Below, one piece after another: positions 27,801 through 55,715 of a stretch of 55,738 bases of DNA (position 1 is its first letter; each line of letters begins with the position of its first letter). The notes below the pieces were generated by a model that saw only the letters and a list, made by a program, of their open reading frames with translations, was not told the DNA's origin and made no database searches. The position numbers were made by a program, and so were the translations under genes. This DNA is from Thermoproteota archaeon (GTDB lineage Archaea; Korarchaeota; Korarchaeia; Korarchaeales; Korarchaeaceae). The DNA is taken from the NCBI GenBank assembly GCA_027078475.1, contig JALWYH010000070.1, forward strand, positions 1 to 55,738, read 5' to 3'.

Positions 27801-27880
27801 TCATGGAGGTGGAGAAACGAACCAAGAGGTACATCCTGAGGCCCAAAGGCGAGCCGACCGAGGTGGGGAAGGTTGGTTAA
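24875..27880 (+). CDS. SNF2-family helicase with DUF3883-like C-terminal domain
   Basis: A protein of 1001 residues. Motif I is DEVGLGKT (62-69), motif II DEAH (162-165), motif III TATPHRG (194-200) and motif VI QRLGRVWRLGQ (about 506-516), which define the SNF2/RapA-like SF2 helicases. Near the C-terminus, HYDLKSI and IIEVKGH (about 905-920) match DUF3883, a PD-(D/E)XK-derived domain. DISARM DrmD and related defence helicases share the SNF2 core. It would translocate on invader DNA. The GTG start is coupled to the previous gene. Codons at about 26900-27550 are AT-richer than the rest. Confidence 0.9.
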   Translation: MNGFREQVSTLLKMVLEASKYNPLIGPYTGLPSTSPPTPYLHQMEVLSRLFLRRPVRVLLADEVGLGKTVTALLLIRYLKRMEWLERILILVPRILVNQWVSELLRMGFKYHEIRLIERETIDRLLADSFPPGIYLASMDLVKLDRYFPHVERVRWDLIVVDEAHRLGMHTDRFETIGKGLIEGDPRRHVLLLTATPHRGDPNDYLARLKLLDPQLNEERRLDSRPFYILTHYSLVFRRTKDEINKVYEETQVFPPARFMAYVVTMSEEEKEFSERLLNFLRTKIREYAELEGKEAKAMGLLTAVIFKRASSSPRAALLTLQRMLEKRAFIENLEGISDRLADAIFGTDYYEYEEEVDPDEVINDFVWKSSGLLTDRDRMEIQYLLNLAKRISQEGDSKLKALGALLKYYMEETDSKVIVFTEYRDTLDYIYNWLIRWMPSWRDRIVRMTADESRSRKKFQEVKRKFERSEGVRILLATDVASEGLNLQVANVLINYEIPWSIIKVEQRLGRVWRLGQRRDVEAITMFTSSKVDRDALDIVYKKLLNIRRATGHVKALMGEEVYVANPSEWGSFPEVTIKEGKKGRPKKFTEYASIKAELLEGREGLRRLVESILRAKEQLEREIREKNLYPKPRTRKEVEKALSKVGFMNQKEIYRSAGALLKAIGGLFDLEVNVGEDGVLRVRSLTSASPPYTIKDYRSLFDYLEGLVKTFSGNEKLVRLLTDCRCRRTSIYMVSVTNKENPYLPLYKELIGYDFDNGRVLRGRDLYYLLAEAIDGALGSPTEMQILDIDMTSRMRAKVRIMAAVRDSAHYILWPLENYLKETIKRNFRNTNTSWLRYNSLKIDIPGPLIEIIPVERSPSPSVELVGDLEELGIDLVKKYEESHGRRIVKDVRLDPSAHYDLKSIDERTGETRIIEVKGHMGNVIYGELTEAEWELARREGDRYWLYIVYNLEKREEGGAVIACFRNPLKTMNVMEVEKRTKRYILRPKGEPTEVGKVG

Positions 27881-29105
27881 AGTACAGGTCCTCTCTGGGA
27901 TGAACTCTATCGGAGGAAACTTCGTGAGGATTGAGGACGGGAACACCAAGATCGCTTTCGATAACGGGATGAGGTTCGATCTCTTCAAGAGGTTCTACTC
28001 AGGCTTCATCTCCCCTTCTGGAGTTGGGGAACTCAGGGAGCTGGGGATAGTACCTAGGGAGGAATGGTACGAGGAGCTCAGCGACCTGTACGTGAGTCAT
28101 CTCCACATGGATCATATAGGCCTCCCCAGCAACATACCCGTGGAACTCACCCTCCACGTGCCCAGCCTCGATATATACAATCAAATGGAGGAGAGGTGGT
28201 CTAAATCACCCACCTGGCTCTCTTTAGCCCCTAGAAAATACTTTGTTAAAGTGGAAGAGATAAGGGCGGGCAAGCTAGGGGATAATTTGGAGGCCATACC
28301 CGTCTCACACAGTGCTTTCCCCGCATACGCCTTCCTCTACCACGGGAGCGATGAAACCGTCCTTTATACCGGGGACTTTAGGCTCACGAGCTTCCTCTCC
28401 GAGGAAGAGTTCGAATCTCTGTGTGGCGCACCTTCCCTGCTCAGGTACTTGGAGGATGAGGGGATGAGGGTAGACAAGCTAGTGGTTGAGGGAACCAATT
28501 TCGGCGTGGGAAAGGTGCCCCTACTGGCTGATGAGGGTTTCAAACTTATGGAGAGGATAGTAGGCTCTTCTCAGCTAACTATAGCCACTTCCCACTATTT
28601 GGATGTGGAGTTCTTAAGGGCGGTGGTAAGGGCCGCTCAGGCCTCGAGTGTCCTGATAGCATCGAAGGTTATGCCTCAATTCCTCAGAAGGGACATGTTT
28701 GCGGAGTTAGAGGAGCCGCTGGTCGCCGAGGAATACGTAAAGGGTGTGCCCGACCTAGATATAGCCTCCATATACGATTATGAGCTTTCCAGCGAGAGGC
28801 TGGTGATCATCACTTCCTACTACGAACTGATCGATCTCGTGAGAAACCTCAGGGAATGGTCAGTCAGCCTCTCCGACATGACGGTGATGCTTTCTGAACC
28901 TGAGCCGAGGCAGGAGGAATCGGTGGATTATGAAGCCCTGTTGAGGTGGATGGATATCCTAGGTATCCTGACTTACAGGGTGAGGGTTTCAGGTCACTAT
29001 TATCCGTTCGAACTCACGAAGCTTATTTCGACAGTGAAACCCAAACAGGTAATTCCCATTCATACTCAGCATCCCAGATTGGTCCTTACGCTCGCACGCG
29101 CGTGA
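27873..29105 (+). CDS. RNase J-like (beta-CASP type) metallo-beta-lactamase
   Basis: A protein of 410 residues with a TTG start inside the end of the helicase gene (8-nt overlap). Metal ligands are SHLHMDH (H76, H78, D80, H81), H146 in PVSHSAFP and D168 in YTGDFR. The end has VSGHYYP and VIPIHTQHP, in the style of the RNase J/beta-CASP family. Such enzymes degrade RNA 5'-3' or process ends, and some act on DNA. The overlap with the helicase says it belongs to the operon, where it could be the destructive effector. I am less sure of the substrate. Confidence 0.82.
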   Translation: MVKVQVLSGMNSIGGNFVRIEDGNTKIAFDNGMRFDLFKRFYSGFISPSGVGELRELGIVPREEWYEELSDLYVSHLHMDHIGLPSNIPVELTLHVPSLDIYNQMEERWSKSPTWLSLAPRKYFVKVEEIRAGKLGDNLEAIPVSHSAFPAYAFLYHGSDETVLYTGDFRLTSFLSEEEFESLCGAPSLLRYLEDEGMRVDKLVVEGTNFGVGKVPLLADEGFKLMERIVGSSQLTIATSHYLDVEFLRAVVRAAQASSVLIASKVMPQFLRRDMFAELEEPLVAEEYVKGVPDLDIASIYDYELSSERLVIITSYYELIDLVRNLREWSVSLSDMTVMLSEPEPRQEESVDYEALLRWMDILGILTYRVRVSGHYYPFELTKLISTVKPKQVIPIHTQHPRLVLTLARA

Positions 29106-40611: not shown

Positions 40612-43600
40612 AGGGGTGGTCCTTCGCAGGCTGCCGGTGTAGAGGCCTTCATCGAACTCAGGACTCTACTAGGCAAGCATAACAGGAATCTAGGTGACCT
40701 CTTATCTTCTATACTTGAAAAAGCGGCTCTAAATGGAGTTATACTGGAGAACCCCAACGTGATTGCCTCCCTCATCCCCCACTCCTCTACGGAATCCGTG
40801 AAGCTCAGGGCCGCTGTATCATCAATCCTGTCGCTGCTCGACTATCTGGGCGTGATACAAAGGTCTCACGGGTTGATAAGGCTCTTAGAGCCGGGAAAGT
40901 CCATGTGGAGATCCCTGAATCCGACTAAAAGGTGCCTGAAACTTATCGAACTTCTGATGAGTAAACATAGGGGATTCTCCAAGCTGATAGAGACCTTCCT
41001 CAGGGTTGGCAGGGTGTCGAGGAACCGCCTGAGGATCTACTCTGAGACCTTCCCTCACTGGGATTATGCCATAATGGGTCTTGTCTGGATGGAGGATTGC
41101 GGGCTAGTCAGTCCCGACAGCCTAGGAGGATACGATATAACGGAAATGGGTTCCAAGGTGTTGCCTGAAGTCCTCAATCAAGATGTAGAGGGGGAGGTGG
41201 CCCGTATTTCGTGCCCCTTCTCCAACTACCTAGATGCCTTCGTGAATTTCACCTCCACCGAGGAATACGACTCACTCAGGAAGAGGAAGGAGCACCTGAT
41301 CCGACTCGGGCGTGAGCTCAAAGCATCGGCGATGAAGGATGAACTAACCCTGAAGGCCATCCTCGAGCAGTTCATCTCCACCGCCTTCACCATGGAGTGG
41401 GCGAGTGATTCGCTGGCCGACTACGTCAGGGAACTGACTGGCGACGTCTACGTGCTATCCATAAAGAGGTTTCTAGCGGAGGTCGTTGGGAGGGACTTCG
41501 AGCTTCCTAAGGCGAGGATCGCATCCTCCATCCTAGAGATATTCTCCGATAAAATGGCTCCTTTAGCCACTGAACTCCTCACTGCCATGTATCCCGAGAG
41601 ATTCGGGGTGTACGACGAGGTGGTTTACAGGCTAATCACTCGACGAACTGACTTGGAGCTGGAGATCTTCAACAGACAGGCGCCGCATTACGAGGGGCTC
41701 TCCACTGAGTACTACGTGGACTTCTGCAACTTCGCGAGGGAGGTGAGGAAATGCCTATCCAAGCTGATGGAAGATGCCGATAACTTGGATGTGTACCTCT
41801 TCCTCCGGTACGTGGAGGAGCGAGAGAGGGAGTGGGAAAGGGGAGAGGGGGGGGAGGAAGGAGCTGCCGAGGCAGTAATTGGTCCAAGGGAGGGCCAAGA
41901 GGAGCAGCTCATCCTCGCGGGAGATACGGAGGAGATACTCGAGGAGTTGGGTCTCAGCCACGCTAAGTTCACCATAGAGGGAGAGTTTCCCGAGCTTTCC
42001 GAGGTCACCTTTGGGGAGAGATTCCCCTGGCTGGAGAGGAGTGGGGGAAAGGGGAGGTCCCTCATTGGATTGAGGATGTACAGGCACCAAGTGGATGTGG
42101 ATGAGGCCCTCACCTCAGGGATGAACGTGATACTAATCTCCGGCACCGGCAGCGGGAAGACCGAGTCGTGGGTCCTCCATGCCCTCAATGAGGGTAAGAA
42201 GGTTTTAGCCATCTACCCCACCCTCGCACTCTCGGGTGATCAGGAGCACAGGATCAGGGACTACTTCGAGGCAGTGGGTAGTGAGAAGGTGTTCAAGCTG
42301 GATGCCAAGGTGGTCAGGGAATACAGGAAGAAGAGAGACAGGAGACTGCTCAGGAAGAGGATCAACATGTCCAGGCTAGTCATAACGAATCCCGCCTTCC
42401 TGATGTCCGACCTGAAGAGGATGGCCGTCGGTGAGGGTTACCTAGAGAAGTTCCTGCAGGACGCCGACATGATAGTGATAGATGAGCTGGACTACTACGG
42501 TTCCTCTGGCGCCAGCCTACTCATCGGAGGTGTACTCGCCCTGCTCTACGGGTACTTCCTGACGGATAAGAAGCCTCAGATAGTGATACTGACCGCCACT
42601 CTCGGGAATCCGGATGAGGTGGGAAAGGCTCTGACCGAGCTCAACGGTAGAGAGACCTCGATAATCGAGGGCAGGCCCTTCCGCCTGACAAACGTGGTGT
42701 ACCTCCTCCTGGATAGGGAAGCCGAGGTAAAGTTCGCCCGCCTGCTGGCCTCCCTGGTGAGGAGCGACGACTCCGGAGTCACACTCGTATTTACCCACTC
42801 CATAAAGGAGGCCGAGCAGATCGCGTGGAGGGTGCGAGCCAATCTCCCTGCTTACATGAAGGATCTGGTTAGAGCGCATCACCATTTGGTGAGCAAGGAG
42901 GAACGGGAGAGGATAGAGGAGTCGGCCAGGAAGGGGAGACTGCGCCTGATAACAACTCCGAAGACCCTAATTCAGGGCATAGACATAGGCACCGTTAGAA
43001 GGGTGGTCCATTACGGCCTCCCCATGGACGTCAGGGAGTTCAGGCAGAGGGAGGGGAGGAAGGGTAGACGCAGGGAGCTGGGAAGCAGCGAGACCATAAT
43101 ACTGCCCATAAGGAAGTGGGATCACAGGCTCATGGAGGGAGGTCCCAATTCCCTGATGAAGTGGGCGAGCCTTCCACCGGAGAAAATACTAGTCAATCCC
43201 AAGAACAAGTACATTAAGCTGTTCCAGAGCCTGTACAAGGTGAAATCTCCCTTCTTATCGTCCAAGATCGAGGAGGATGAGCGGAAACTACTCATGGATC
43301 TGGGATTGATGGAGCAGGTCGTGATCGAGGGCATGCTCCTCGATGACCTGACGGAGGAGGCCCTCACCAAGGTGTGGAAGAACCTGAACTTCTACGGATA
43401 CGGCCCTCCCTACGGCTACAGGAGGTACCATTTCAGGAGCAAGGAACTCCTGACCGAGGAGGAAGTCTCCCTCAGCGATCTGGTTGAGAAATTCCAGCCT
43501 GGTTGTATTGACTACTCCACCTCCATGATAGTGGTCCGCCTCTCTAGGGGCACCGCAATACTGGAGGATGACCTATACTACCTGGAGAACTCCAGGCTGG

Positions 43601-44865
43601 ATGTTGGCGATGCTGTGAGGTCGTTCAAGGCAGAGTACGAGAGGATAAAGAGATCGTGGGGGGAGGAACCCAACTTCTACCGGGACTTCCAGTACGGTAG
43701 AATCTTCTCGAGGGTAGACCTGCTGGTGAGGCCTCCCAAGGAGTCGTTCGGTCTGCTGAGGGAGATACCCCTCTCCGTGAGATGGATCCTGGAGGGTGAG
43801 GGGACCAAGCCTACCGAGTTCGATGGTGTGGTGAGGGAGAGGTTCCTCTCTAGATCGGTGGAACTGCGAACCAGGACCAGAGGTGTCTATTCGTCCTACA
43901 CATACGGGAAGTCGTATCCTCTCGATCCATTGGAGGATGTAATGAGCCTTCGACTTGGAATGGCGTTTCTCGTCTCCCTTCTCAAGCTAGAGCTGAACCT
44001 CTCACTTAATCTGGTGAGGTACGCGTTCGTGCACTCCTACACGTCCAGCCAGCTGGTGGTGTGGGAGCCTAACCCGGTGGGAGTGCTGGAAATGCCTGAC
44101 CTGTGGAGAGCCCTCAGGAGAGCCGTTGAGGCGCATCAGCCCGATCACCTGACCAAGATATACATGTGGGCCGTGGACAGGGAGATAGTTGACCTCATGA
44201 TGGACGGGATGGATTGGGAGAGGGTGAAGGAGCTCGCCATGAGGGCTCTGGACTATATAGAGGGATCTTTCGTGAAAATGCCCCTTCCACCCAAGGTGCT
44301 GGTTGTGGAACCGGAGGATGTGAGAGCAGCTTCCTTGGAGCTCGTCGACCTCTCCCCCCTCATGCCGACGGAGAAATCTCTAGCGGTGATATTCGACGGG
44401 AGGGAGTACAGGTACTTCGAGCTGCCCAAGTTAGAGTCTCTCGTTAAGGGAGAGATATCGGGGGATGATCTCTCATCTCTCTATCACTTCTTCGAGGCGC
44501 TGGACTCCCTCATAAAGGAGGGGTTCAAGATCGTGCATTTCGGCAGGGAAAACGAGCTCTCCAAGATATGCAGTGCCTTAGGAACCTTCACCGAGATTAA
44601 GTGCAGGAACTGGAGGGAATCTCTCGCCATGATAGATCTCCACGAAGATCTGGTCAGGAGTCTGGGGACGGACATCGTTCCCATAGAAAGGGTCGAGGAG
44701 ATCGTGGACGGCCTGCCCGAGAGGGAGGTTGGGCTGGATGACCTGATCGAGAGCTACTCTACTAGGGAAGGTAACGATCCACTACCGATGGTGAAGGAAT
44801 ACGCGAAGGAGAACGCCAGATCCATAAGATCTATTTACCTGGCTCTAACTCTTGGAGACATTTAG
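40612..44865 (+). CDS. Very large SF2 DExD-box helicase, Lhr-like
   Basis: The first usable start is GTG at 40759 (1368 residues). Numbered from there, Walker A is GTGSGKT at 462-468, motif II DELD at 575-578, motif III near ILTATLGNP (about 611) and motif VI QREGRKGRR (about 763). The layout with long N- and C-terminal regions recalls Lhr and other giant SF2 helicases of defence loci, but I cannot name the family. Fifty further codons of protein-like sequence run in frame from 40612 without a start, and an in-frame TGA at 40609 precedes them, so the 5' end may be damaged. Copies of its 3' end occur at 11048-11181 and 37849-37900. Confidence 0.8.
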   Translation, partial: RGGPSQAAGVEAFIELRTLLGKHNRNLGDLLSSILEKAALNGVILENPNVIASLIPHSSTESVKLRAAVSSILSLLDYLGVIQRSHGLIRLLEPGKSMWRSLNPTKRCLKLIELLMSKHRGFSKLIETFLRVGRVSRNRLRIYSETFPHWDYAIMGLVWMEDCGLVSPDSLGGYDITEMGSKVLPEVLNQDVEGEVARISCPFSNYLDAFVNFTSTEEYDSLRKRKEHLIRLGRELKASAMKDELTLKAILEQFISTAFTMEWASDSLADYVRELTGDVYVLSIKRFLAEVVGRDFELPKARIASSILEIFSDKMAPLATELLTAMYPERFGVYDEVVYRLITRRTDLELEIFNRQAPHYEGLSTEYYVDFCNFAREVRKCLSKLMEDADNLDVYLFLRYVEEREREWERGEGGEEGAAEAVIGPREGQEEQLILAGDTEEILEELGLSHAKFTIEGEFPELSEVTFGERFPWLERSGGKGRSLIGLRMYRHQVDVDEALTSGMNVILISGTGSGKTESWVLHALNEGKKVLAIYPTLALSGDQEHRIRDYFEAVGSEKVFKLDAKVVREYRKKRDRRLLRKRINMSRLVITNPAFLMSDLKRMAVGEGYLEKFLQDADMIVIDELDYYGSSGASLLIGGVLALLYGYFLTDKKPQIVILTATLGNPDEVGKALTELNGRETSIIEGRPFRLTNVVYLLLDREAEVKFARLLASLVRSDDSGVTLVFTHSIKEAEQIAWRVRANLPAYMKDLVRAHHHLVSKEERERIEESARKGRLRLITTPKTLIQGIDIGTVRRVVHYGLPMDVREFRQREGRKGRRRELGSSETIILPIRKWDHRLMEGGPNSLMKWASLPPEKILVNPKNKYIKLFQSLYKVKSPFLSSKIEEDERKLLMDLGLMEQVVIEGMLLDDLTEEALTKVWKNLNFYGYGPPYGYRRYHFRSKELLTEEEVSLSDLVEKFQPGCIDYSTSMIVVRLSRGTAILEDDLYYLENSRLDVGDAVRSFKAEYERIKRSWGEEPNFYRDFQYGRIFSRVDLLVRPPKESFGLLREIPLSVRWILEGEGTKPTEFDGVVRERFLSRSVELRTRTRGVYSSYTYGKSYPLDPLEDVMSLRLGMAFLVSLLKLELNLSLNLVRYAFVHSYTSSQLVVWEPNPVGVLEMPDLWRALRRAVEAHQPDHLTKIYMWAVDREIVDLMMDGMDWERVKELAMRALDYIEGSFVKMPLPPKVLVVEPEDVRAASLELVDLSPLMPTEKSLAVIFDGREYRYFELPKLESLVKGEISGDDLSSLYHFFEALDSLIKEGFKIVHFGRENELSKICSALGTFTEIKCRNWRESLAMIDLHEDLVRSLGTDIVPIERVEEIVDGLPEREVGLDDLIESYSTREGNDPLPMVKEYAKENARSIRSIYLALTLGDI

Positions 44866-45306: not shown

Positions 45307-45768
45307 CTAGAGGAGCGAGGTGATTTCCTCCCAATAGACTACACCCAGATCCCTCAGCTCCCTCTCATAGGGTTCCATTTCACTCTCGAGCTTCAGGAAA
45401 ATCGCAGGACAGCCGACTGAGATCGCGGAGACGATGACGAAGATGTCAGGGAGGGCGAGCCTGAACCTCTTCTTCAGCTCTCCCGCAGCCCTGGCCGCGT
45501 CGATATCCAGGCCCAAAACCTCGGTACCCGACAGGCTGACTAGCCAGTTCACGTAGTTCAGGGCGTTCTCGTTGGGATTCGAGATTCCCGCCTCCCTGTA
45601 AATTCTGTGGGTGACGTAGACCACCTCGGAAATGGTTAATGGGGTCAGATAAGCCCTGAATTTTCCCTCCATGATCCTGCCGAAGAGGTCATCTATGCCC
45701 CGGGTGGGCTCCTCCGTTATGTATTCCACCAAGACGCTGGTGTCCAGCACGCCGCAATCAACCTTCAA
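45307..45768 (-). CDS. vapC: VapC-type PIN-domain toxin with AbrB partner
   Basis: A PIN protein of 153 residues: LDTSVLVEY has D9, ISEVVYV has E48, and ALPDIFVIVSAI provides the third Asp. The TTG start overlaps the end of the AbrB-type antitoxin by 11 nt. The fourth acidic residue is probably in the LKLESEMEP segment. RNA cleavage is expected. The pair is transcribed leftwards. Confidence 0.88.
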   Translation of the reverse strand: MKVDCGVLDTSVLVEYITEEPTRGIDDLFGRIMEGKFRAYLTPLTISEVVYVTHRIYREAGISNPNENALNYVNWLVSLSGTEVLGLDIDAARAAGELKKRFRLALPDIFVIVSAISVGCPAIFLKLESEMEPYERELRDLGVVYWEEITSLL

Positions 45769-45982
45769 GCCTGAGTTCCTCCCTCTTGGCCTCGCGGACT
45801 ATCTTCTGGATCTCCTCGCTCCTCAACTTGACCCTCTTGGGCAGCAGGGGCCTCATCACGATCTCCGAACCCCTGACCTCCAATACGAGAGGGGTCCCCT
45901 CCGAGAGGTGGAGGGAGTCCCTGATCTCCTTGGGTATGACGATCGTTCCCTTCTTACCGAGTCTGATTGTCTTACTTAACAT
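45758..45982 (-). CDS. vapB: AbrB/MazE-fold antitoxin
   Basis: About 74 residues from the ATG at 45982. SKTIRLGKKGTIVIPKEIRDSL followed by GTPLVLEVRGSEIVMRP is the swapped-hairpin AbrB DNA-binding fold, and the basic/acidic helix behind it would bind the PIN toxin. An in-frame start at 46051 would add 23 residues that do not fit the fold and would lie upstream of the TATA-like box (46016-46025), so it is rejected. A palindrome lies just upstream of the start. Confidence 0.85.
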   Translation of the reverse strand: MLSKTIRLGKKGTIVIPKEIRDSLHLSEGTPLVLEVRGSEIVMRPLLPKRVKLRSEEIQKIVREAKREELRLEG

Positions 45983-45987
45983 AAAGA

Positions 45988-46010
45988 TCTGACCAATTAA
46001 TCCGGTCAGA
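45988..46010. promoter_or_regulatory. Inverted repeat at the AbrB-vapC promoter
   Basis: TCTGACC (45988-45994) and GGTCAGA (46004-46010) are exact reverse complements 9 nt apart, between the TATA-like CTTTTAATTG (minus strand, about 46016-46025) and the start at 45982. Likely the antitoxin binding site. Confidence 0.55.
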
Positions 46011-46088
46011 CCACAATTAAAAGCTTTCTTACGCGTCTCTGAATGTCGCACCCTCTGGGTCAGTGAGGGTGGGGTGTAACACTAGCTC

Positions 46089-46358
46089 CTAAACGCCCGC
46101 CCTTCGAGCGCACTCCCTCCCATCCTCTATGAAGGGAGGGGATATGTCGAGGTAGACGACATTGTAGCCCATCTCGGCTAGGGGGATGGCCACCCTTCCA
46201 TTACCGCACCCGAGTTCCAAGATCTTTTCGGGCTCGAGGTCGTGCTTCTTGAGGAGCTCGACTATCCTATTAGCTTCTCCCCTCCCCCTCTCCAACTTAT
46301 AGTTCAGGGTCTTCAAGAAGAGATTCGCCTTCTCCGAGAACACCTCCTTGACCCCCAT
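46089..46358 (-). pseudogene. Truncated SAM-dependent methyltransferase
   Basis: The 89-residue frame has the methyltransferase motif I ILELGCGNGRVAIPLAEMG and motif II VVYLDISP, then stops after RRAGV, where a full enzyme would continue for another 100 residues. No continuation is visible in other frames down to 46020. It is a 5' fragment, probably without activity. Confidence 0.65.
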
Positions 46359-46489
46359 CCGATCATCTTGGCGTCATAAAGGCATTTCTAATTCTCCCCT
46401 ATATGAACTTGAAGGTTCCCGTTATTACAGCAGAAAAGGAAGGATTTTGTAAGGGACCTTGGCGGTCACCGAATCTCGACCTGTAAGCA

Positions 46490-46795
46490 TCAGTCGACGC
46501 GTACGATCCTCCCCCTCCTCTTGAAGGCCGAGAGGTCTTTCCTTCTGTGGATATGGATCTCGAAGGGGTCCTTGATCCCGGCTCTCCAGAGTTCGGACAG
46601 GACCAGCTCAGGCCTCAGCTCCGTTACGATCAGCACATCTATGTCGCTGGCCAGATTCCCCCTCCCCTCGGCCACGGAGCCGAACAGGTACACCTCCGCC
46701 TCGGGATCGAGCTGCCTAACCACCTCCTTTATCCTCCTGAGGTGCTCGTCAAGGTTCCTGCGTATCTCCCTTCTCCTGATCGCCTCATTGATCAA
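46490..46795 (-). CDS. MNT-type nucleotidyltransferase (antitoxin)
   Basis: A protein of 101 residues. VYLFGSVAEGRGNLASDIDVLIV gives GS at 39-40 and D-x-D at 51-53, and FEIHIH supplies the third strand, so the active site is complete. It follows the HEPN gene with a 4-nt gap. In this order (HEPN first, MNT second) the pair still fits the HEPN/MNT toxin-antitoxin type. Confidence 0.85.
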   Translation of the reverse strand: MINEAIRRREIRRNLDEHLRRIKEVVRQLDPEAEVYLFGSVAEGRGNLASDIDVLIVTELRPELVLSELWRAGIKDPFEIHIHRRKDLSAFKRRGRIVRVD

Positions 46796-46799
46796 GAGG

Positions 46800-47246
46800 T
46801 CATGAGACAGGCGGGACAGCCCTCATCACCTCCTCGACCACTCTAAAAAGCCTCCTGACCTCATCCTCCGAAAAGTCCTTCGGGATGTAACGGGAGGTGA
46901 TGTAAGCATCTTCCAGCAGCGACAGCTCCACCTGATATTTCTTGAGGAGTTCGTTCAAGCCCTTCAGGTTTGGGTCCACCTCCACCAGCATCTCGATGAG
47001 CCTCCTGACGTCGTGTATCCTGGGATAGAGCACGCCCCTCTCAAGGAGCCTCGCCTTGAGGAACAGCTGGAGGGCCTGCTCGAGACTCAGAGCAGCCAGC
47101 GCGAGCATTCCCCCCTCCACCTGGAACTTGGCGGTCTCCAAGAACTCCCTAGACCTCCTCAGAAGGTACTCAACTTCCCTCTCCGCCGATGAGGACACAT
47201 GCGATTTAGGTGGGTGTCCCAAAAAAATTTGACCCTGTGAACTCAT
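46800..47246 (-). CDS. HEPN-domain protein, partner of the MNT
   Basis: EREVEYLLRRSREFLETAKFQVEGGMLALAALSLEQALQLFLKARLLERG is the typical first half of a HEPN domain (pfam HEPN type), with helices to the end (EVRRLFRVVEEVMRAV). The start is uncertain: an ATG at 47300 gives 166 residues, the ATG at 47246 148, and the GTG at 47198 132; the last fits the domain border best and follows an A+T-rich box. No RxxxxH motif is obvious, so catalysis is doubtful. Confidence 0.78.
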   Translation of the reverse strand: MSSQGQIFLGHPPKSHVSSSAEREVEYLLRRSREFLETAKFQVEGGMLALAALSLEQALQLFLKARLLERGVLYPRIHDVRRLIEMLVEVDPNLKGLNELLKKYQVELSLLEDAYITSRYIPKDFSEDEVRRLFRVVEEVMRAVPPVS

Positions 47247-47405
47247 TTTCGGACGTAAGCATTGGGACGTGAGATTTCCTATTGACGGACCGTATGACAT
47301 CGGAAACTGGTCCGAGGTGGAACTTGAGAGAACCGTCCCTCGCTCCGCATTATATCAACCCCGCCTCCCAAGTAGATTTATCTGCCCCCAATCCCCCATT
47401 CCCTT

Positions 47406-47825
47406 GTGGCGGTTCAGAAGAGGCGGACCCGCGAGGAACCCGGGGCATTCAAGGAAGAACTCCTCGAAAGGCTCTCGAACTTAGACCAAGTTTCGCTACG
47501 TGAAGGCACGACAGATTTACTCTCCCTCCTGGACGACGTCGAGCTCGTCCTGAGCTCGGAGGATCTGACAGAGCTGGAGAGGCAGGGCTTCACCCTGATA
47601 AGGGAGTACCTGAAGGAGGCGACGGTCCTCGAGCTCAGAGGGCTTCCCAGAGCCCCCTTCCTTAAGAAGATCAAGGAGATAGCATCCATCCTGAGGAAGA
47701 TAGAGGACCTCAGAGGAGAGGGGATCCGCATCATCACCCTGGAGGACCTGACCGTCGTTGGTGAGGTCGATGGAAGGCCAGTCTACTCCCTCAGGCAGGA
47801 AGAGGGAGATAGTCCTCATAGATAG
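47406..47825 (+). CDS. Helical protein of unknown function, possible frameshift at the 3' end
   Basis: A 139-residue frame from a GTG. It is mostly amphipathic helix (EELLERLSNLDQVSLREG, TDLLSLLDDVELVLSSEDL) with a final beta part (IRIITLEDLTVVGEVDGRPVYSL). After residue 130 the sequence becomes unlike protein, while the +1 frame continues with KREIVLIDRRPRRVLVERR and GLEFATSTGA to a TAG at 47890. The native product may be about 160 residues with a frameshift near 47800. No family is recognised. Confidence 0.5.
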   Translation: MAVQKRRTREEPGAFKEELLERLSNLDQVSLREGTTDLLSLLDDVELVLSSEDLTELERQGFTLIREYLKEATVLELRGLPRAPFLKKIKEIASILRKIEDLRGEGIRIITLEDLTVVGEVDGRPVYSLRQEEGDSPHR

Positions 47826-47878
47826 GAGGCCCAGGAGGGTCCTCGTCGAGCGCAGGGAGGGCTTGGAATTCGCTACTT

Positions 47879-48529
47879 CTACTGGGGCCTAGATCGGTGC
47901 GATCCCCACGATCGCGAGCTGATGGTGTCTCCCAGGTGTAAGAAGTCCCCCACCCTCCTCCTTACTGCCCTCCATCCTCTGACCCCTCTCTCCTCCATCA
48001 GCTCGAGGTAGGCCTCGAGCTTACTCGCATCAACCATCCGGATCAGCTCGGACATCTCGTCGATGGCGGGGTGTCTGAAATAGACGAGATCGATCAAGGT
48101 TTTCTCGGGGTCGGAGACCCTCACCCACTCTCCCAAGTCCTCCATGTAGATGTAGTCGTATCCAAAGTACATCTTCTCGGATATCCTCCTCACTATCACC
48201 TTGAAGCCAGCTACGATCCTCTCCCCCGATCTGACAGTCTTGGAAGCGGCCGGAGACAGAACCGTTATGGCCCCGACCTGGTTCCATGCTCCATGGAGGA
48301 AGGCCGCCGAGCCCAGCCCTATATACGACATGGGAATTGCCTTGACAATCATGTAGGGCGACTTCTTGAACGTGTAGACGCCCTTGACGAGTTCCACTAT
48401 TTCCCCCCTTTTCCTCAGGTTGTGGAGGAGGACCTTCGCGTAGCTCCCAACCGAGCTCTCCACCAGCCTGTAGGTGAATATGGAGGAGCTCCTCAGCTTC
48501 TCCACCAATCGGGAATGTCTAGTGGGCAA
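47879..48529 (-). CDS. AbiEi-type antitoxin/regulator, without its toxin gene
   Basis: A protein of 216 residues. The N-terminal winged helix (LLHNLRKRGEIVELVKGVYTF) and the AbiEi domain marks (AIPMSYIGLGSAAFLHGAWNQV, VSDPEKTLIDLVYFR) are clear. AbiEi represses and neutralises AbiEii nucleotidyltransferases in type IV systems. No AbiEii-like gene follows on the minus strand; the neighbour at 47406 is convergent and unrelated. The TTG start at 48529 is tentative. Confidence 0.8.
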   Translation of the reverse strand: MPTRHSRLVEKLRSSSIFTYRLVESSVGSYAKVLLHNLRKRGEIVELVKGVYTFKKSPYMIVKAIPMSYIGLGSAAFLHGAWNQVGAITVLSPAASKTVRSGERIVAGFKVIVRRISEKMYFGYDYIYMEDLGEWVRVSDPEKTLIDLVYFRHPAIDEMSELIRMVDASKLEAYLELMEERGVRGWRAVRRRVGDFLHLGDTISSRSWGSHRSRPQ

Positions 48530-48916
48530 TCCTCCTTACCTTCCGCACGATGCGCGCGCTGACGAGTTTCGCCTTCACCGTATAGCCGATCGTATTTGGC
48601 ATTTGTCCCGCGCCGTATCGTGGTGTTGACCTCAATGAGTTCTCTCATATTCGTTCCCTCCTAGAGAGTTGAAGGAGAAACCATTGTGGTTCAAGAAACT
48701 GCTTTCTAAATGTGACTCCTAGGGGAACCGCGCGATATCACCCAAGGGATTTAACAACTGGAGTGACTCGATGAGAAGCGCACGATCAGGATTTTCAAAT
48801 GTGAAAAGGGCCATAGGAGATTTGTGGCATCCATCTATGGGCTAAAAATCAGTTACCTAGCGGTGCTACTCCTAATCTGCACGCTAACTGGTGATTCGAA
48901 CTCGCCTCCAGCTTAA
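48530..48916. other. Intergenic, no gene recognised
   Basis: A 50-codon minus-strand frame (starting at an ATG near 48648) has no domain. A tRNA-like TTCGAA stretch near 48896 lacks matching stems. Nothing else is supported. Confidence 0.35.
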
Positions 48917-49264
48917 TTGACTGAGTTAAGTAACAAACTGGAAGAGTTAGCTAACGTTAAGAAGGAATACGCCTATGGAGACACGATGTCCATAGCGAGA
49001 ATCAGCGAGCTTCTGGGTATGAGCCCGGAAGAGCTGGAGAGGGAAGCAGTGCGATCCTTCCTGCTGAAGGAGCTGAGGAAGGTGAGGGCCGAGGCGGAGG
49101 CGATAATGTCGAGGTACGGGGTGAAGAGCATAGAGGAGCTGGACGGGAAGGTGAGGAGGGGGGAGCTTAGGGAGACCGATGTGCTGGAGGACCTGATGAG
49201 GCTGGACTACCTGCTGGACAGGGAGGAGAGGCTGAAGGAGCTTTTGAAGGAGATGGAAGGATGA
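48917..49264 (+). CDS. TumA-like antitoxin
   Basis: A protein of 115 residues. The MSIARISELLGMSPEELERE segment is a helix-turn-helix and the rest a long charged helix with RYGVKSIEELDGKVRRGE and VLEDLMRLDYLLDREERL, as in antitoxins that precede TumE-family toxins. The stop overlaps the toxin start by 4 nt (ATGA at 49261-49264). The TTG start may instead be the ATG 23 codons later. Confidence 0.7.
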   Translation: MTELSNKLEELANVKKEYAYGDTMSIARISELLGMSPEELEREAVRSFLLKELRKVRAEAEAIMSRYGVKSIEELDGKVRRGELRETDVLEDLMRLDYLLDREERLKELLKEMEG

Positions 49265-49674
49265 ACCTCTCCGATGTGGATAGGGAGCTCGAGAGGCTCA
49301 GGATGAGGGTACTGGGGCATCCGTCAGTGGTGGATGCTGAGATCAGGGAGGGAAAGTTGAGAGTGTACCTAAAGGACGAGAGCTACATGGATGTGTGGGT
49401 ATCCAGGAAGCTCAGAGACAGGTACGCGGTTCACTGGGAGAGGAGGCACGTGGACGGGACCATCTATAGGTGGGACAACACGCCCCACGAGGCCCATAAG
49501 AGTGTGAGCACCTTCCCTCATCACTTCCACGACGGCAGCGATGAGAACGTCGGGCCAAGCGAGTTCACCTCTTTAGAGGACCTAATGGATAGGGTCATGG
49601 TCTTCGTCGAGGAGAAGATTGGAGAGCTTAAGAGGAACTACCAAGCCTCAGAGGAAGCTGAACACGATTATTAG
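49261..49674 (+). CDS. TumE-family (DUF6516) toxin
   Basis: A protein of 137 residues. KLRVYLKDESYMDVWVSRKLRDRYAVHWERR, WDNTPHEAHKSV and FPHHFHDGS are the order and His-rich signature of DUF6516/TumE proteins. The family is a predicted RNase toxin. It follows its antitoxin with an ATGA overlap. A decayed relative lies head-on at 49680-50143. Confidence 0.82.
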   Translation: MNLSDVDRELERLRMRVLGHPSVVDAEIREGKLRVYLKDESYMDVWVSRKLRDRYAVHWERRHVDGTIYRWDNTPHEAHKSVSTFPHHFHDGSDENVGPSEFTSLEDLMDRVMVFVEEKIGELKRNYQASEEAEHDY

Positions 49675-49679
49675 AAGTA

Positions 49680-49905
49680 TCAAAGTAATTCTACGAACTT
49701 TTCAAGGTAGCGAGAATGCTTAGCTTGCAGCTCCAAATCTTGATCCTGAAATCTCTCGTAATGCAGACTGTACCTGCCTGAGGCGCTCCAGTAAATGTCC
49801 AGGAAGCTGCCATCGACGAAGACGACCCTAATTTTAGTCAGGGGGTTCCCGATGGCGCCCTTATCTCCTTCGCATCGTCGATCACGTCACGAAACTTGGG
49901 TGTTC
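49680..49905 (-). pseudogene. Decayed TumE-like toxin gene
   Basis: On the minus strand, GNPLTKIRVVFVDGSFLDIY and WSASGRYSLHYERFQ can be read, followed by a helix to the stop at 49680-49682. DGSFLDI...RYSLHYE matches the core of DUF6516/TumE proteins. The His-rich half is missing and a frame break lies near 49870. Confidence 0.55.
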
Positions 49906-49922
49906 CAGTCTCAATGAGTCAC

Positions 49923-50143
49923 TCATGGATCTCGGATGAGGGATCGTGTAACACGCTTCAAAGCCTCCAAAATCTTCTTCCTCTCCTCAGTCAGGCGTTC
50001 CAGTGCTATGAGGTCTTCCCAGCCGGATGCTCAGGTACATCCCCTCTAGCAATTCCCCTCTCTCCATGATCGCTGGGAGGTAGCTGGAGGGTGCGTCCAG
50101 CAATCCAGATGATGCCCGCTTTGCGGTGAACCTGCTTGGCCCT
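49923..50143 (-). pseudogene. Decayed TumA-like antitoxin gene
   Basis: The minus strand has SYLPAIMERGELLEGMYLSI in one frame and, after a shift near 50025, WEDLIALERLTEERKKILEA to a stop at 49923-49925. The second part resembles LEDLMRLDYLLDREERLKEL of the intact antitoxin at 48917. With the adjacent toxin fragment it forms a dead pair in the normal order. Confidence 0.55.
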
Positions 50144-50563
50144 TCACAGCTCCAGATCCCTTATGTGCCTCATCCTCCCCTTCGCCTTCCTCAGAAGCTC
50201 CTCGTCGGCCGTGTAGGCGTCGACCTCGAGAAGCTCGGCGAGGGCGGCGTAGGACGCATCGTATATGGTGATCCCCTTCCTCATAGCCAGTTCAACGCTC
50301 TTCTTCGCGAGCTCCCCCGACAGGTCGTGGAGCGTGAGCTGAAAGTCATCGAGCGTCTCAGCCACCTCCTTCAGCTCTTCCTCACCGAAAGCGCCAGAGT
50401 ACTTGAGGGCGTTCAGCACCTCGTAAGGCAGGAGACTGGGGCAGGCCAGATCAATCACCCCGGAGGCATACGCATCCCTCAGGAGCCTCGCCTCCCTGGA
50501 GTGCTCCTCATCGACGAACCACTTGACCACCACGGAGGCATCAACTACGACCTTTCCCTCCAT
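50144..50563 (-). CDS. vapC: VapC-type PIN-domain toxin
   Basis: About 139 residues from the ATG at 50563, which follows the strong ribosome site GGAGGTGAG. All four acidic residues are present: D8 (VDAS), E48 (PYEVLNAL), D102 (IYDAS) and D120 (TADEE). It closely follows the pattern of the vapC at 1731. The gene start lies 18 nt inside the end of vapB. Confidence 0.9.
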   Translation of the reverse strand: MEGKVVVDASVVVKWFVDEEHSREARLLRDAYASGVIDLACPSLLPYEVLNALKYSGAFGEEELKEVAETLDDFQLTLHDLSGELAKKSVELAMRKGITIYDASYAALAELLEVDAYTADEELLRKAKGRMRHIRDLEL

Positions 50564-50793
50564 TTCCTCACCTCCTCCACGGAGCTCCATCCCTCCACCC
50601 TTCTGGAGAGCCTCTCCGACCTGAGAGCAGCTTTCTTGATCTTTGACAGGTCTTTCTTACGTCTCCTTTCCTCCTCCCTCCTTATCGTCTCCATTATGGC
50701 TCTTCTGACCACCTCGCTCCAGTTGATGTGCCTGAGCTCGTCCATCTTCTCCTTGATCTTCCTATCTATCCTGAAGCTCACGACCACCGACAT
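50545..50793 (-). CDS. vapB: VapB-type antitoxin (ribbon-helix-helix)
   Basis: About 82 residues from the ATG at 50793. SVVVSFRIDRKIKEKMDELRHINWSEVVRRAIME is a classic RHH VapB head; a basic helix and the tail SSVEEVRKWRERS follow. A longer frame from 50901 is rejected because a TATA-like TTTTTATTAC (about 50815-50823) and a palindrome (50796-50810) lie between. Confidence 0.87.
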   Translation of the reverse strand: MSVVVSFRIDRKIKEKMDELRHINWSEVVRRAIMETIRREEERRRKKDLSKIKKAALRSERLSRRVEGWSSVEEVRKWRERS

Positions 50794-50795
50794 CG

Positions 50796-50810
50796 TGTTG
50801 TAATACAACA
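50796..50810. promoter_or_regulatory. Perfect palindrome before vapB
   Basis: TGTTGTA and TACAACA flank a single A; the site ends 3 nt from the vapB ATG and sits directly after the TATA box. Likely VapBC operator. Confidence 0.65.
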
Positions 50811-50976
50811 ATGTAATAAAAATATGACTCACTCCGCTGGGGAACCAATCCTCAGCATCATGATTGATCGAGACGCGTTGAGCATGATAAGAGAATGTCA
50901 TGGTCTACGCTAAGGGACGTGGCCGAAACAGAATTACAGGATTTATGATGAGCGAGTTTATTAAAATCTAACCCTA

Positions 50977-50995
50977 GGTAATACATGGTATAACC
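50977..50995. promoter_or_regulatory. Inverted repeat before the AbrB-type vapB
   Basis: GGTAATAC and GTATAACC (one mismatch) flank ATG; the site ends 2 nt before the start codon at 50997 and follows the TATA-like GTTTATTAAAA (about 50956-50966). Confidence 0.55.
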
Positions 50996-50996
50996 A

Positions 50997-51251
50997 ATGG
51001 TGAAACTCAAGGTCAAGGTGGGGCCCAAAGGCCAGATAGTGATCCCCAAGATGCTCAGGAGAAAATATGGAATAAGGGAGAACAATCAGGTCATCCTGGA
51101 GATTAGAGAAGATGAGATAGTCATCAGAGGCCCGAGGAGTATTGAGGAGACCTTGGAATGGATCAGAGAGAGGCGGAAGGAGGTGAAGGGACAGGAAGCC
51201 AGGCTGGGAGATCTAGCGGAGATTGACCTCGAGGAGGAGTTCGAGGATTGA
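50997..51251 (+). CDS. vapB: AbrB-fold antitoxin
   Basis: A protein of 84 residues. LKVKVGPKGQIVIPKMLRRKYGIRENNQVILEIREDEIVIRGP is an AbrB/MazE DNA-binding domain and the remaining acidic helix is the toxin-binding tail. It overlaps the toxin start by 4 nt (TTGA). A near-palindrome sits at its promoter. It diverges from the vapBC at 50144-50793. Confidence 0.88.
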   Translation: MVKLKVKVGPKGQIVIPKMLRRKYGIRENNQVILEIREDEIVIRGPRSIEETLEWIRERRKEVKGQEARLGDLAEIDLEEEFED

Positions 51252-51649
51252 AGGTTCTGGTTGATGCGAACCTCCTCATATACCTCAACGTGAAGATGCC
51301 GGACGATGAGGCTAGGCTCGTCGAGAAGTTCTGGGAAGAACTGAACAGGAATCACGAGCTCTTCGTGAATCTGCTGGTGCTCGATGAAACCCTGTACATA
51401 TCTAGGAAGAAGTATGGCGTGCCATTCGAAGAGACCATGGAGTTCATCGACAGAGCCGTGCTCCCTCACACAGAGATTTTGACGCTGGGCCTGGAGACCT
51501 ATGTAGAGGCCAGGAAGTACATGATCAGGTACGGCTTGAAACCCTCCGACTCGATCCATGCGGCTACTGTGGAAGTATTTGGGCTGCAGGCAATAGCCAG
51601 CGAGGATGCGGATTTCGATGAGACGGGTATCAAAAGGCTCTGGCTATGA
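51248..51649 (+). CDS. vapC: VapC-type PIN-domain toxin with AbrB partner
   Basis: A protein of 133 residues with D6 (LVDANLL), E47 (VLDETLY), D101 (PSDSIHAA) and D120/D122 (ASEDADF), a complete PIN active site. The TTG start is coupled to the antitoxin stop. The length is normal. RNA cleavage is expected from the family. Confidence 0.9.
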   Translation: MKVLVDANLLIYLNVKMPDDEARLVEKFWEELNRNHELFVNLLVLDETLYISRKKYGVPFEETMEFIDRAVLPHTEILTLGLETYVEARKYMIRYGLKPSDSIHAATVEVFGLQAIASEDADFDETGIKRLWL

Positions 51650-51820: not shown

Positions 51821-53290
51821 CTATCTCAGAATCCAGTAACCTATCAGATGGCCCCTCCTTTCGTTTACCTCGACCAGGTGACGGGATCTACCGTGGAGCC
51901 AGTCCATGTGTTCTCTGTGCGGGTGGTTGTAGTTATTACCGCAGCCATAGGAGACCGCAGACAGGTCCGATTCCAGGCCATCGAGGGCGCGATCCCAGCC
52001 ATTGCTGCTGCCATGGTGTGGCGCCTGGTAGTAGGACAGATTCGAGACGGTGTCCTTACCATAGTATCCAACCAGCTGGGAGAAGATGCGGGATCTCTCG
52101 CCTCCTCTCGCTGACAGGTCCCCCGTGAAGAGGAACCCTCTCCTGCCCCTCAGTGGAACCTTCGGATTGAACCTTCCCCTGTAGTATCTCAGCTTGTCCT
52201 CCCTCATCCCCAAGCACCTCGCCGAGGCGCGAAAGCGGGTGCACCCCCTTTCTCCCTCTCTCTCGACAGCGATGGCGTTGACCAGGGCTACGAGCGAGTG
52301 CTCGTTGAGCCGTTTCAGGTACTTGGAATATACCTCCCTCATCCTCGTTATGCAATCCCGCCTCCCCATCAGCCCCAGTATTTCGGAACTCCTCAGATGG
52401 CATCTCCCCTGATCGTCGATAATCCTCTCCCTCCTCCGTATGCCGCAGTCGCGCAGTAAATCAGAAACCTCCTCCATGAACTCGTGCTCCTCATCGCCCA
52501 GCCCGGGCTTCCTCAAGAAGGGCCAGACATGGATCAGATGGCCCCTTTCACGGTTGCCGCACCCGAATACCAGAACTACTGGCATGGTGAGGAACTCCAC
52601 CCTGAGCGACGAGGATTCTACCTTGAGATGGCGCGATAGCACGTCCTCGTGTCTACGGAACTCATCGGCATCGGTGTAGCTCCGGTCGAGACGGCTGGGA
52701 TCCTCGGCTCCTCCCCCACCCACACTCTTCCCGAGCGTCAACGCGGCCCATTCACCTTTCATTTCCCTCAGCTTTGCTCCCATATCTTCAGGCGGTGGGA
52801 ATTCCCCAGGTGAGCCGGGTGGAACGGGTGGTTGGGCCCCCTCCTCTCCCTCACCAACCAGGAGCACTTCTTCGACGCCAAGATTCAGGAGGAAGCTTAC
52901 CGGATCCGCGATGAATCTCACGTACCAGTTCGGATACAGGTGGAATTCCGTCATCAGTTCGTAGAGCCTCTCGCAGGGAGTCAGGTAGGGGAGAACGACC
53001 TTTCTCGCGCTGACCCTGCTGAGGAGGGTGGGCAGGAGGGACACGTGATCCCAGTGCAGATGGGATATCACTAGGAGATCCAAATATGGCTCGTCTCTCA
53101 GATCATAGGTAATAAAGCTTGTAACGGCCCTCTCTCCATGACGCCAATATTCCCTCGAGGTCCCGCAATCGTAAACCATGTGGAATGGCCTGCAACTCCC
53201 GTGCCGGAAATCGGGGAGGTAATTCAAGCTTTGAAAGAGACCCTGACCTACCGGGTACATCACCAGCTTAAACTTGCCGCTGTAGTACAT
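51821..53290 (-). CDS. ComEC-like metallo-beta-lactamase fold protein
   Basis: A protein of 489 residues. VGQGLFQS and YDCGT (strands of the ComEC/Rec2-type lactamase), SHLHWDH with H77, H79, D81 and H82, LFTGDLS and QAPHHGSS give a full metal site. VSYGCGNNYNHPH near the end is the usual closing motif. An insertion (about 135-215) is rich in Pro, Gly and Glu. It has no transmembrane part, unlike ComEC itself. Stand-alone proteins of this type occur in defence loci with unknown substrates. TATA-like GCTTAAAAGCTTATATC precedes its start. It is divergent to the EVE-like gene, so the two probably share a control region. Confidence 0.82.
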   Translation of the reverse strand: MYYSGKFKLVMYPVGQGLFQSLNYLPDFRHGSCRPFHMVYDCGTSREYWRHGERAVTSFITYDLRDEPYLDLLVISHLHWDHVSLLPTLLSRVSARKVVLPYLTPCERLYELMTEFHLYPNWYVRFIADPVSFLLNLGVEEVLLVGEGEEGAQPPVPPGSPGEFPPPEDMGAKLREMKGEWAALTLGKSVGGGGAEDPSRLDRSYTDADEFRRHEDVLSRHLKVESSSLRVEFLTMPVVLVFGCGNRERGHLIHVWPFLRKPGLGDEEHEFMEEVSDLLRDCGIRRRERIIDDQGRCHLRSSEILGLMGRRDCITRMREVYSKYLKRLNEHSLVALVNAIAVEREGERGCTRFRASARCLGMREDKLRYYRGRFNPKVPLRGRRGFLFTGDLSARGGERSRIFSQLVGYYGKDTVSNLSYYQAPHHGSSNGWDRALDGLESDLSAVSYGCGNNYNHPHREHMDWLHGRSRHLVEVNERRGHLIGYWILR

Positions 53291-53365
53291 CTCGAGCCCC
53301 GTTAAGGCGAATCAGATATAAGCTTTTAAGCCCCTTTCTGGACCCCTCGCGACGATCAGCCGGAT

Positions 53366-55177
53366 GTGGGCACTCCCATCGCTCCCCCTACTCGCGCTCT
53401 GCATGTCACTTGGGGATGTCTATGGGGGCCAGGAATTCCATCGATTAGTACTACTGTGAAAGAAAGGATAAAAACGCTTTTATCGTCACTTTTGGAAAAA
53501 ATTTTGGACGATAAATGGCTGAGGTGCGATTCATTGGGATTCGGTAGGGATAAGGACGACGTACCTCCGAAGGGGTTGGGTAAACAAGCGCCCCTCGGTG
53601 GTGTCCTTCGCATAGGGGCGATGAGTGAAAGAAGACCTCCCAGGCTCTGGTTAACTTCAGCATCGGGAAAAGCTATTCGTAATCTCAAGAGGACGGTCCT
53701 CAACCCGGTCCCGGTAGAGGAGATAATCAAACATGAGCCAGATACAGGATCGAAACTCAGGTACTCCGGATACAATGAGATATGTGTTTGGGGATTGAAG
53801 CCCACGGAGAAATACGTTAACAACTGGAATACGATAGAGCCCGGGGACTACGTCCTATTCCTAAGAGGGAGCAGGTACATACTTCTGGGTAGAATCGTTT
53901 ATCCTCCCAGGGTAGAGAGCCCCGGTCTCGCCTCCGCCCTGTGGGCCAGTTCGAGTGAGGACGCCCCGTGGAGTTTAATCTTTTTCTTTGAATCCCTGAC
54001 TGAGATTGATGTTGACTACAGGTTGCTCAACTCCGTACTGGGTTACAATCCCGAGTTCAGACCTGAAGCGAAATTCGGGTTCCTCAGGGTCAGGGAAGAT
54101 AGGATCGAGCGCCTCATAGATAAGTACGGATCCATAGAGGAGGCCCTGACCCGTCTTTCCGAGTCAGGTGAGGAATGGATCCCCGGGGGACTTATCATTG
54201 CGAGACTGGATAAACAAGAAGACGGCAGCGTACCTGCTGCGAAGAATCCAAAGGGGAAGGGCAATAAGAACTTCAAAATCTTCGATTTAAATTCCCTCAT
54301 CAAGGTGCTGGAGAACCATCGCTCCGCCCTGGAAGGCACGATTGATCTCTTGGAGAGATACCGTCTAAAGCACCGTATCGGAAGAACCATTGTCGAGTTA
54401 GACGGGGAACTCGTGAGGTCCATTATACTTCTCGCTCCATCGACATCACCCGCGGCAGCCACCGTCACGATCAGCACAGGACCGCGAGGAGTCTCTTCCT
54501 ACCAAGTCGAGTTGATCGATGGTGGATCGTACCTGTTCAGGAGCTTGGAGGATCTAGAAAGTTTACTTAGAGAGATCGGTACGGAGCGGCAGGTATGCTG
54601 TAATGAGCACCAGTACTCACTCTCGGATGACCTTCTCAAGAGGGTCCTGGAGATCATGGAGAAGGAGATCGACTTAATCGGGCTGTTAAGAAGGACGCTA
54701 CAGACATACCTCAAATGCTTCACTCGCCACTGTGCGAACCTGGCTTCGGCCTACGTTCTGGTGAAGGAGGGCCTGATCGACACGGAGGCATCTCTCCACG
54801 AGATAGTTAGGCTTGTCGGCAGGGGACATGGCATTGAAGTGGAGGGAGATGAGGGAAACTCGGAGGACGATCAGAGGGCAGAGGATAAGGAGGTAGGAGA
54901 GGCCGACCACGAGTTCATCGAGACAGGACTCGTAGTGTTGGAAGCGGCGTGGAGGCTTTCCTTGGATGGTTTCAATATCTCGAGCACGGAGCATATAATA
55001 AGGGAGATAAGGAGGAAGAACGGTGAAAATTACCCCGTGGATCCGGATACGGTGAATAGAATCTTGAGGAATATAGGAGCTAAAGGGAGGAACTCCGTGT
55101 GGAACATAGGTTTCCTATCAGCCTACAGATTCGCGGAGCTGAGGGAGGCATGGCTATCGAAGTTCAGGGACAACTAG
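53366..55177 (+). CDS. Large protein with EVE/McrB-N-like DNA-binding domain
   Basis: A frame of 603 residues. Residues about 135-250 (NEICVWGLKPTEKY, IEPGDYVLFLRGSRYILLGRIVYPP, ALWASSSEDAPWSLIFFFESL) resemble the PUA-like reader domain of EVE and McrB N-termini, which bind modified bases. The end is a helical domain with four Cys/His clusters of low order. The first 80 residues are uncertain: starts at 53366, a GTG at 53456 and an ATG at 53621 are all in frame, and the sequence from 53456 on looks protein-like. It may recognise modified DNA and work with the divergent lactamase; that is inference from position. Confidence 0.6.
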   Translation: MGTPIAPPTRALHVTWGCLWGPGIPSISTTVKERIKTLLSSLLEKILDDKWLRCDSLGFGRDKDDVPPKGLGKQAPLGGVLRIGAMSERRPPRLWLTSASGKAIRNLKRTVLNPVPVEEIIKHEPDTGSKLRYSGYNEICVWGLKPTEKYVNNWNTIEPGDYVLFLRGSRYILLGRIVYPPRVESPGLASALWASSSEDAPWSLIFFFESLTEIDVDYRLLNSVLGYNPEFRPEAKFGFLRVREDRIERLIDKYGSIEEALTRLSESGEEWIPGGLIIARLDKQEDGSVPAAKNPKGKGNKNFKIFDLNSLIKVLENHRSALEGTIDLLERYRLKHRIGRTIVELDGELVRSIILLAPSTSPAAATVTISTGPRGVSSYQVELIDGGSYLFRSLEDLESLLREIGTERQVCCNEHQYSLSDDLLKRVLEIMEKEIDLIGLLRRTLQTYLKCFTRHCANLASAYVLVKEGLIDTEASLHEIVRLVGRGHGIEVEGDEGNSEDDQRAEDKEVGEADHEFIETGLVVLEAAWRLSLDGFNISSTEHIIREIRRKNGENYPVDPDTVNRILRNIGAKGRNSVWNIGFLSAYRFAELREAWLSKFRDN

Positions 55178-55493
55178 CTGTCCTTTTCCCGGCCATGGAG
55201 TGAATATCCGCCGCTCATGATTGAGGATGAAATTCCACCAATAAGGGTCCCATCATGAGAAAAACGAAAAGAATAATTCAGTATATTAAGAGGGAGTTAG
55301 ATAGAGGACCCGTTGCAACTTCTCGAAAATCCGACGAAGGGATGAGAATCAGGGAGCCTGAAGCGATCGCGCCGCGAGGGCATGGGAACACATAGAGTTT
55401 CCCGGGGATGAATTATCCCTTGCCCTTAGAATCGGGGACTTGGACTGGACTGGGGCAGTAAGGTTTATCAATCCGGATTTCGTGTATGCATGC
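55178..55493. other. Intergenic with vapB promoter
   Basis: No gene is supported; a 46-codon frame at 55255-55395 lacks a domain. TATA-like GGTTTATCA lies at about 55462, some 28 nt before the vapB ATG at 55494. Confidence 0.4.
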
Positions 55494-55495
55494 AT
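55486..55495. promoter_or_regulatory. Palindrome overlapping the vapB start
   Basis: ATGCATGCAT is a perfect 10-nt palindrome; its last bases belong to the start ATG at 55494. It fits the operator position seen at the other toxin-antitoxin promoters, but is short. Confidence 0.4.
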
Positions 55496-55715
55496 GCCCA
55501 GGACGATAACCATATCTGACGACGTGTACGAGGAGCTGAGGAGGCTGAAGGAGGGCAGGAGCTTTTCGGACGTGATCAGGTCCCTATTACGTAAGAGAAG
55601 CAACGTGGACGTGCTGATGATCGCCTTTGGGACTAGGACTGAGGATGAAATTAGGGAGCTTGAGGACGAGCTGGGAGAGGTCGACGGATGGATGCGGTCC
55701 TTGACTCCAGCGTGA
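55494..55715 (+). CDS. vapB: VapB-type antitoxin (DUF217)
   Basis: About 73 residues from the ATG at 55494. PRTITISDDVYEELRRLKEGRSFSDVIRSLL is the DUF217-type VapB head, followed by an acidic tail with RTEDEIRELEDELGEVD. A start at 55440 would lie before the TATA box and is rejected. The end overlaps the vapC start by 28 nt. Confidence 0.88.
   Translation: MPRTITISDDVYEELRRLKEGRSFSDVIRSLLRKRSNVDVLMIAFGTRTEDEIRELEDELGEVDGWMRSLTPA

Follow-up and report, generated by a model that had tools for sequence, protein, structure and literature searches.

The two divergent genes at positions 51821–55177 of the archaeal DNA analysed here, a stretch of 55,738 nucleotides hereafter called the window, are most probably two independent defence genes that face each other by chance in one archaeal island. 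The left-hand gene (51821–53290, minus strand, 489 residues) encodes a soluble, defence-associated, ComEC-like metallo-beta-lactamase (MBL) with a complete metal site. The right-hand gene (53621–55177, plus strand, 518 residues) encodes a protein whose N-terminal domain, judged from profile comparison and a structure model, belongs to the PUA-superfamily YTH/EVE fold. Each gene is an addition to an already known defence family. A first-pass annotation had proposed that the two form a system of a reader and a hydrolase. However, among 394 archaeal genomes searched with profiles of both families, only the window's own genome was found to hold the two together, and the homologues of each gene lack the other, an outcome that the annotation itself had named as telling against a system. 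We regard the genes as independent because the pair is not conserved among the genomes searched.

A soluble ComEC-like MBL with long insertions

Pfam and NCBIfam matches, together with a homologue from the same genus, identify the left-hand gene: its reading frame matches PF00753 (E = 1.5e-8), and the C-terminal part of the protein matches TIGR00361 (ComEC_Rec2; E = 1.4e-6). The metal-binding motif HLHWDH occupies residues 77–82 (53045–53062, minus strand), with H77, H79, D81 and H82 invariant in the alignments; the GDL motif lies at residues 390–392 (52115–52123, minus strand), with G390 and D391 invariant; PHHGS, as in ComEC, at residues 424–428 (52007–52021, minus strand); and N-x-Y-x-HPH at residues 452–458. 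All four are intact in the window MBL and are kept by its aligned relatives. A hydropathy scan of the protein found no membrane segment (19-residue maximum, 1.5), and the earlier description of a soluble ComEC-type enzyme with an intact metal site was borne out. Its family suggests that the MBL, a putative nuclease, is probably a DNase effector. Assignment to the 6A-MBL enzymes was rejected (11 bits against a profile cut-off of 220).

The HxHxDH, GD, PHHGS and N-x-Y-x-HPH motifs are common to the C-terminal MBL nuclease of ComEC, from which the window protein differs in standing alone, with no transmembrane channel, and in carrying about 220 extra inserted residues. The spacing from HxHxDH to PHHG is 348 residues in the window MBL and 288–348 across its family, whereas it is about 120–130 in the solved ComEC domains. 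Aligned with ComEC, the protein has a first insertion at about residues 105–328 (52307–52978, minus strand), partly of low complexity, between HxHxDH and an N-x-x-S-L-V motif, and a second at about residues 340–383 (52142–52273, minus strand). A gating role is possible for both, in the second case by comparison with PMC12799240. The structure model, with a two-sequence alignment as input, reached a mean pLDDT of 36 and was too poor for a fold search.

Full-length relatives were found among the 394 archaeal genomes in G001 (same genus, 53% identity), G235 and G367, with a truncated copy in G336. Wider class-level searches brought in G402, some fragments and, in G535, a protein that has diverged further, while more distant relatives occur on one viral contig (L042, bacterial-type) and on rhizobial and Hymenobacter plasmids; when the genome collection was scanned with the alignment of the MBL, only the same-genus MAG JALSOH01 matched. 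The neighbours of the MBL are different at each locus read (gene identities at these loci were read from sequence by eye, except those scanned in G001). In G001 (L009 11448–14911, contig C11), a gene for an OLD-type AAA_15-TOPRIM ATPase runs in the same direction as the MBL gene and precedes it by 33 nt. Together they are candidates for a two-gene unit and resemble an operon more closely than the window genes do; when the window's own genome was searched, no homologue of the ATPase turned up. The G367 MBL is divergent from type III Mod-Res, and at L036 7289–16416 an MBL divergent from type III Mod-Res is accompanied by a further OLD-like ATPase downstream. On L042, the MBL is inserted into a type I locus (2147–12445), with hsdS on one side and hsdR on the other. 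This locus comprises hsdM, hsdS, hsdR, and patatin, CD-NTase-like and E2-like genes; some of its genes are CBASS-like, and several overlap. The G402 MBL is divergent from a nucleotidyltransferase (CD-NTase) gene, the truncated G336 copy lies about 2.6 kb from McrBC, and the G235 MBL is solitary, with no obvious partner gene. Because its relatives are placed with so many different defence genes, an MBL of this kind looks like an interchangeable accessory nuclease and not a dedicated partner of the window reader, in a comparison that rests on few loci and on genome collections that are a sample.

ComEC-like MBL defence nucleases gated by insertions have been described in AVAST, Hachiman, Lamassu, DRT and Canu (PMC12799240). 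The window MBL has in common with these pro-nucleases its intact metal site, the long insertions between the catalytic motifs and a distribution over unrelated defence systems; the published work shows such systems acquiring this type of nuclease. It may therefore be, with a chance somewhat short of even, a gated pro-nuclease of the Avs1a/HamM/CanC type whose activator is another, non-adjacent host protein, an explanation compatible with the independence of the two genes. Its relatives match the defence-MBL profiles Avs1a (4e-9), LmuA (3e-11) and RTasMBL (RT-associated MBL; 2.8e-9), but the window protein itself gives weak scores with LmuA (1.9e-3) and PDC-M48B (6.6e-4) and no match with Avs1a. 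Unlike the known gated enzymes, moreover, it has no trypsin-like or caspase-like gene beside it, no protease domain being found among the nearby window genes scanned, and its archaeal relatives sit with OLD-type ATPases, restriction–modification (R-M) systems or a CD-NTase.

A YTH/EVE reader with an orphan C-terminal region

The right-hand gene had been described as encoding a 603-residue protein with a reader in its middle. The open reading frame and the reader are both real; the length and the position of the domain have been revised. From its GTG, the plus-strand frame (53366–55177) does encode 603 residues, but in a codon-usage scan the first ~250 nt looked weakly coding or not coding, and the coding signal in this frame set in at about 53620 and held up to the stop codon. 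The gene start is best read as ATG 53621, giving 518 residues instead of 603, because the N-terminal relatives of the reader domain begin there and the coding signal begins at about the same position. With the start moved, the gap between the two genes is about 330 nt (53291–53620) and the reader domain becomes N-terminal. Each gene has a TATA-like box of its own, at about 53322–53330 on the minus strand for the MBL gene and at about 53468 or 53498 on the plus strand for the reader gene, and the 75-nt shared promoter region suggested earlier was accordingly rejected.

Single-sequence searches of Pfam, PADLOC, NCBIfam and the PDB with the reader protein gave no convincing match. Relatives of its residues 14–182 were found by genome search, and six sequences, the window protein among them, went into a profile of the domain (A3). 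This profile matched the N-terminal domain of Thermococcus gammatolerans McrB (6p0f/6p0g, E = 5.6e-8) over positions 5–165, the whole domain length, as well as 6ut5 (E = 9e-7). The AlphaFold model of the protein was confident for residues 1–182 only, with pLDDT mostly 60–89 per 10-residue block; Foldseek placed 6p0f (E = 2.9e-6) and 6p0g (E = 7.0e-6) at the top, followed by the EVE-HNH enzyme VcaM4I and by YTH domains, so that the predicted structure does show the PUA/EVE fold whose absence would have counted against the first-pass annotation. Profile and model thus point to a YTH/EVE-type modified-base reader domain of the T. gammatolerans McrB-N type at residues 1–182 (53621–54166, plus strand). 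Three tryptophans, W69, W108 and W117, do not vary among the family members. The T. gammatolerans domain has been described as a 6mA-binding YTH domain (PMC7897488, PMC7641849), and by analogy the predicted ligand of the window reader is a methylated base, most likely N6-methyladenine.

Families of EVE/YTH readers are already in the literature (Bell et al. 2020, PMC7641849), and the window protein has an N-terminal PUA-superfamily sensor in common with the modification-dependent restriction enzymes fused to such domains (PMC7641849), EVE-HNH VcaM4I among them (PMC7897488). Its own relatives carry the same kinds of partner. The domain is fused to McrB-type AAA+ GTPases in G017, G341, G162 and G251, to probable PD-(D/E)XK nucleases twice in G022 and once in G378 (by eye; the G022 proteins had no convincing Pfam match), and to an HNH nuclease in G324 (by eye), while on haloarchaeal plasmids it lies within genes annotated as restriction or HNH endonucleases. 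Viral contigs yielded no relative.

The window protein departs from all of these in its C-terminal region, residues 183–518 (54167–55177, plus strand), whose 336 residues are unlike any effector domain of the EVE/YTH-fused enzymes. No homologue of this region was found in 150 archaeal genomes, in plasmid and phage collections or in the fetched loci, and no nuclease motif is recognisable in it. In contrast to T. gammatolerans McrB, no GTPase follows the reader domain, domain scans having found neither an NTPase nor a McrB AAA+ GTPase in the protein, and no McrC adjoins it, the scanned neighbours being toxin–antitoxin genes and the MBL.

A protein of this make-up might be a transcriptional or other regulatory DNA-binding protein, combining a YTH domain with a helical DNA-binding C-terminus, and not a restriction component. 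The missing nuclease motif would fit, as would the mostly helical prediction for the C-terminal region, although the model is of low confidence there; in two genomes (G037 and G059, by eye) the same domain stands C-terminal to a winged-helix-like segment with no recognised nuclease. We nevertheless consider a regulatory role unlikely, as every other relative with a recognisable partner domain is a restriction enzyme. The C-terminus of the window protein did not match the winged-helix-like segment of G037.

The pair in other genomes

Window-type MBLs occur without a window-type reader in G001, G336, G235, G367, G402 and L042, and the reader domain occurs without a window-type MBL in G017, G022 (two copies), G037, G059, G162, G251, G324, G341 and G378. 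As far as searched, no A3-family reader lies beside the MBL relatives and no window-type MBL beside the reader relatives; the wider class-level searches covered the MBL alone, and there the neighbourhoods of its best hits were read. The closest comparison is with G001, whose contig has several genes in common with the window island at 66–85% identity; the MBL is kept there at 50–53%, and a genome search found no A3-family reader. A different reader-like gene, fused to a probable PD-(D/E)XK nuclease, is convergent to the G001 MBL at a distance of 437 nt, and its similarity to the A3 family is weak (hhalign probability 71%).

Two observations speak against independence. MBLs and modification readers lie close to each other more than once (G001 and G336), which is expected anyway in defence islands, and, as no nuclease is recognisable in the window reader, one could act for it in trans. 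They would suit a two-component module for modification-dependent restriction, with the reader sensing modified DNA and the MBL serving as its nuclease in trans. The two genes are adjacent and divergent, the metal site of the MBL is intact, most relatives of the reader have a nuclease in cis or recruit McrC, and the nearest relative of the MBL also has a reader-like fusion gene close by. Such an arrangement is nonetheless improbable, given that no second genome with the pair was found and that, in the set searched with both profiles, the two families coincide only in the window's own genome, that a member of the same genus holds the MBL without an A3-family reader, and that the genes have no common core promoter. 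Functional coupling of MBL and reader is thus unsupported, and the more specific version of a split restriction module, in which the nuclease-less YTH reader would license the insertion-gated ComEC-like MBL in trans, is very improbable.

The defence island

Domain and defence-profile scans confirmed that the setting is an island rich in defence genes. At 18100–29105 on the plus strand of the window lies a five-gene operon of a DISARM/Hma-like archaeal system, comprising a DUF1156 methyltransferase, a DUF499 ATPase (E = 7e-210), a 154-residue protein, an SNF2 helicase with NOV_C (DrmD/HmaA-like) and an RNase J-like MBL. Some PADLOC relatives of the DUF1156 methyltransferase are labelled DNA-adenine methylase. 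Should this enzyme make 6mA, its sites would have to be ignored by any 6mA reader that the cell also contains, an oddity that we do not count as evidence. Further downstream (40759–44865, plus strand), a DEAD/DEAH-box helicase of 1368 residues matches the SngC, BrxH and DpdF profiles.

Toxin–antitoxin genes, identified by domain scan and reading, are dense at 1731–2162, 6786–8320, 45307–51649 and 55440–55715, and include PIN toxins with AbrB, RHH and VapB antitoxins, HEPN-MNT-like pairs, AbiEi and TumE. The TumE toxin and its likely antitoxin (48917–49674) have counterparts in G001 (contig C11, about 50828–51549) that are 78–85% identical, far above the 50–53% of the MBL; TumE itself (49261–49674) accounts for the upper figure of 85%. 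DUF365-type genes adjoin EVE/YTH reader genes at three loci (window 12875–13736, L010 8617–10215 and L011 89–1483), the neighbour being an EVE gene that stands alone in the case of the window and a YTH-nuclease gene in both cases from G022; the DUF365 profile was run on the window gene only. A recurrent partnership between DUF365 and EVE/YTH readers is possible.

Discussion

Read as two independent genes, the pair suggests two separate modes of action. The right-hand gene would encode a sensor resembling those of type IV restriction, whose N-terminal YTH/EVE domain would flip out and bind a methylated base, probably N6-methyladenine, and whose C-terminal region would pass the signal on or act itself. 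In the MBL, the insertions between the catalytic motifs may hold the enzyme inactive until another component of the island triggers it, as in Avs1a, HamM and CanC. If the split module were true after all, it would represent a type of partner other than the proteases known for gated MBL nucleases.

A candidate two-gene system is thereby removed, and two better-defined facts, an orphan-tailed reader and an archaeal insertion-bearing MBL, stand in its place. The archaeal YTH/EVE reader family gains a member with an orphan region of 336 residues where others have a nuclease or a motor. No trypsin or caspase partner is evident in the MBL loci read, which raises the question of what activates the archaeal enzymes. 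Insertion-bearing ComEC-like defence MBLs reach the archaea and are accompanied by OLD-type ATPases, CD-NTases and R-M genes of types I and III.
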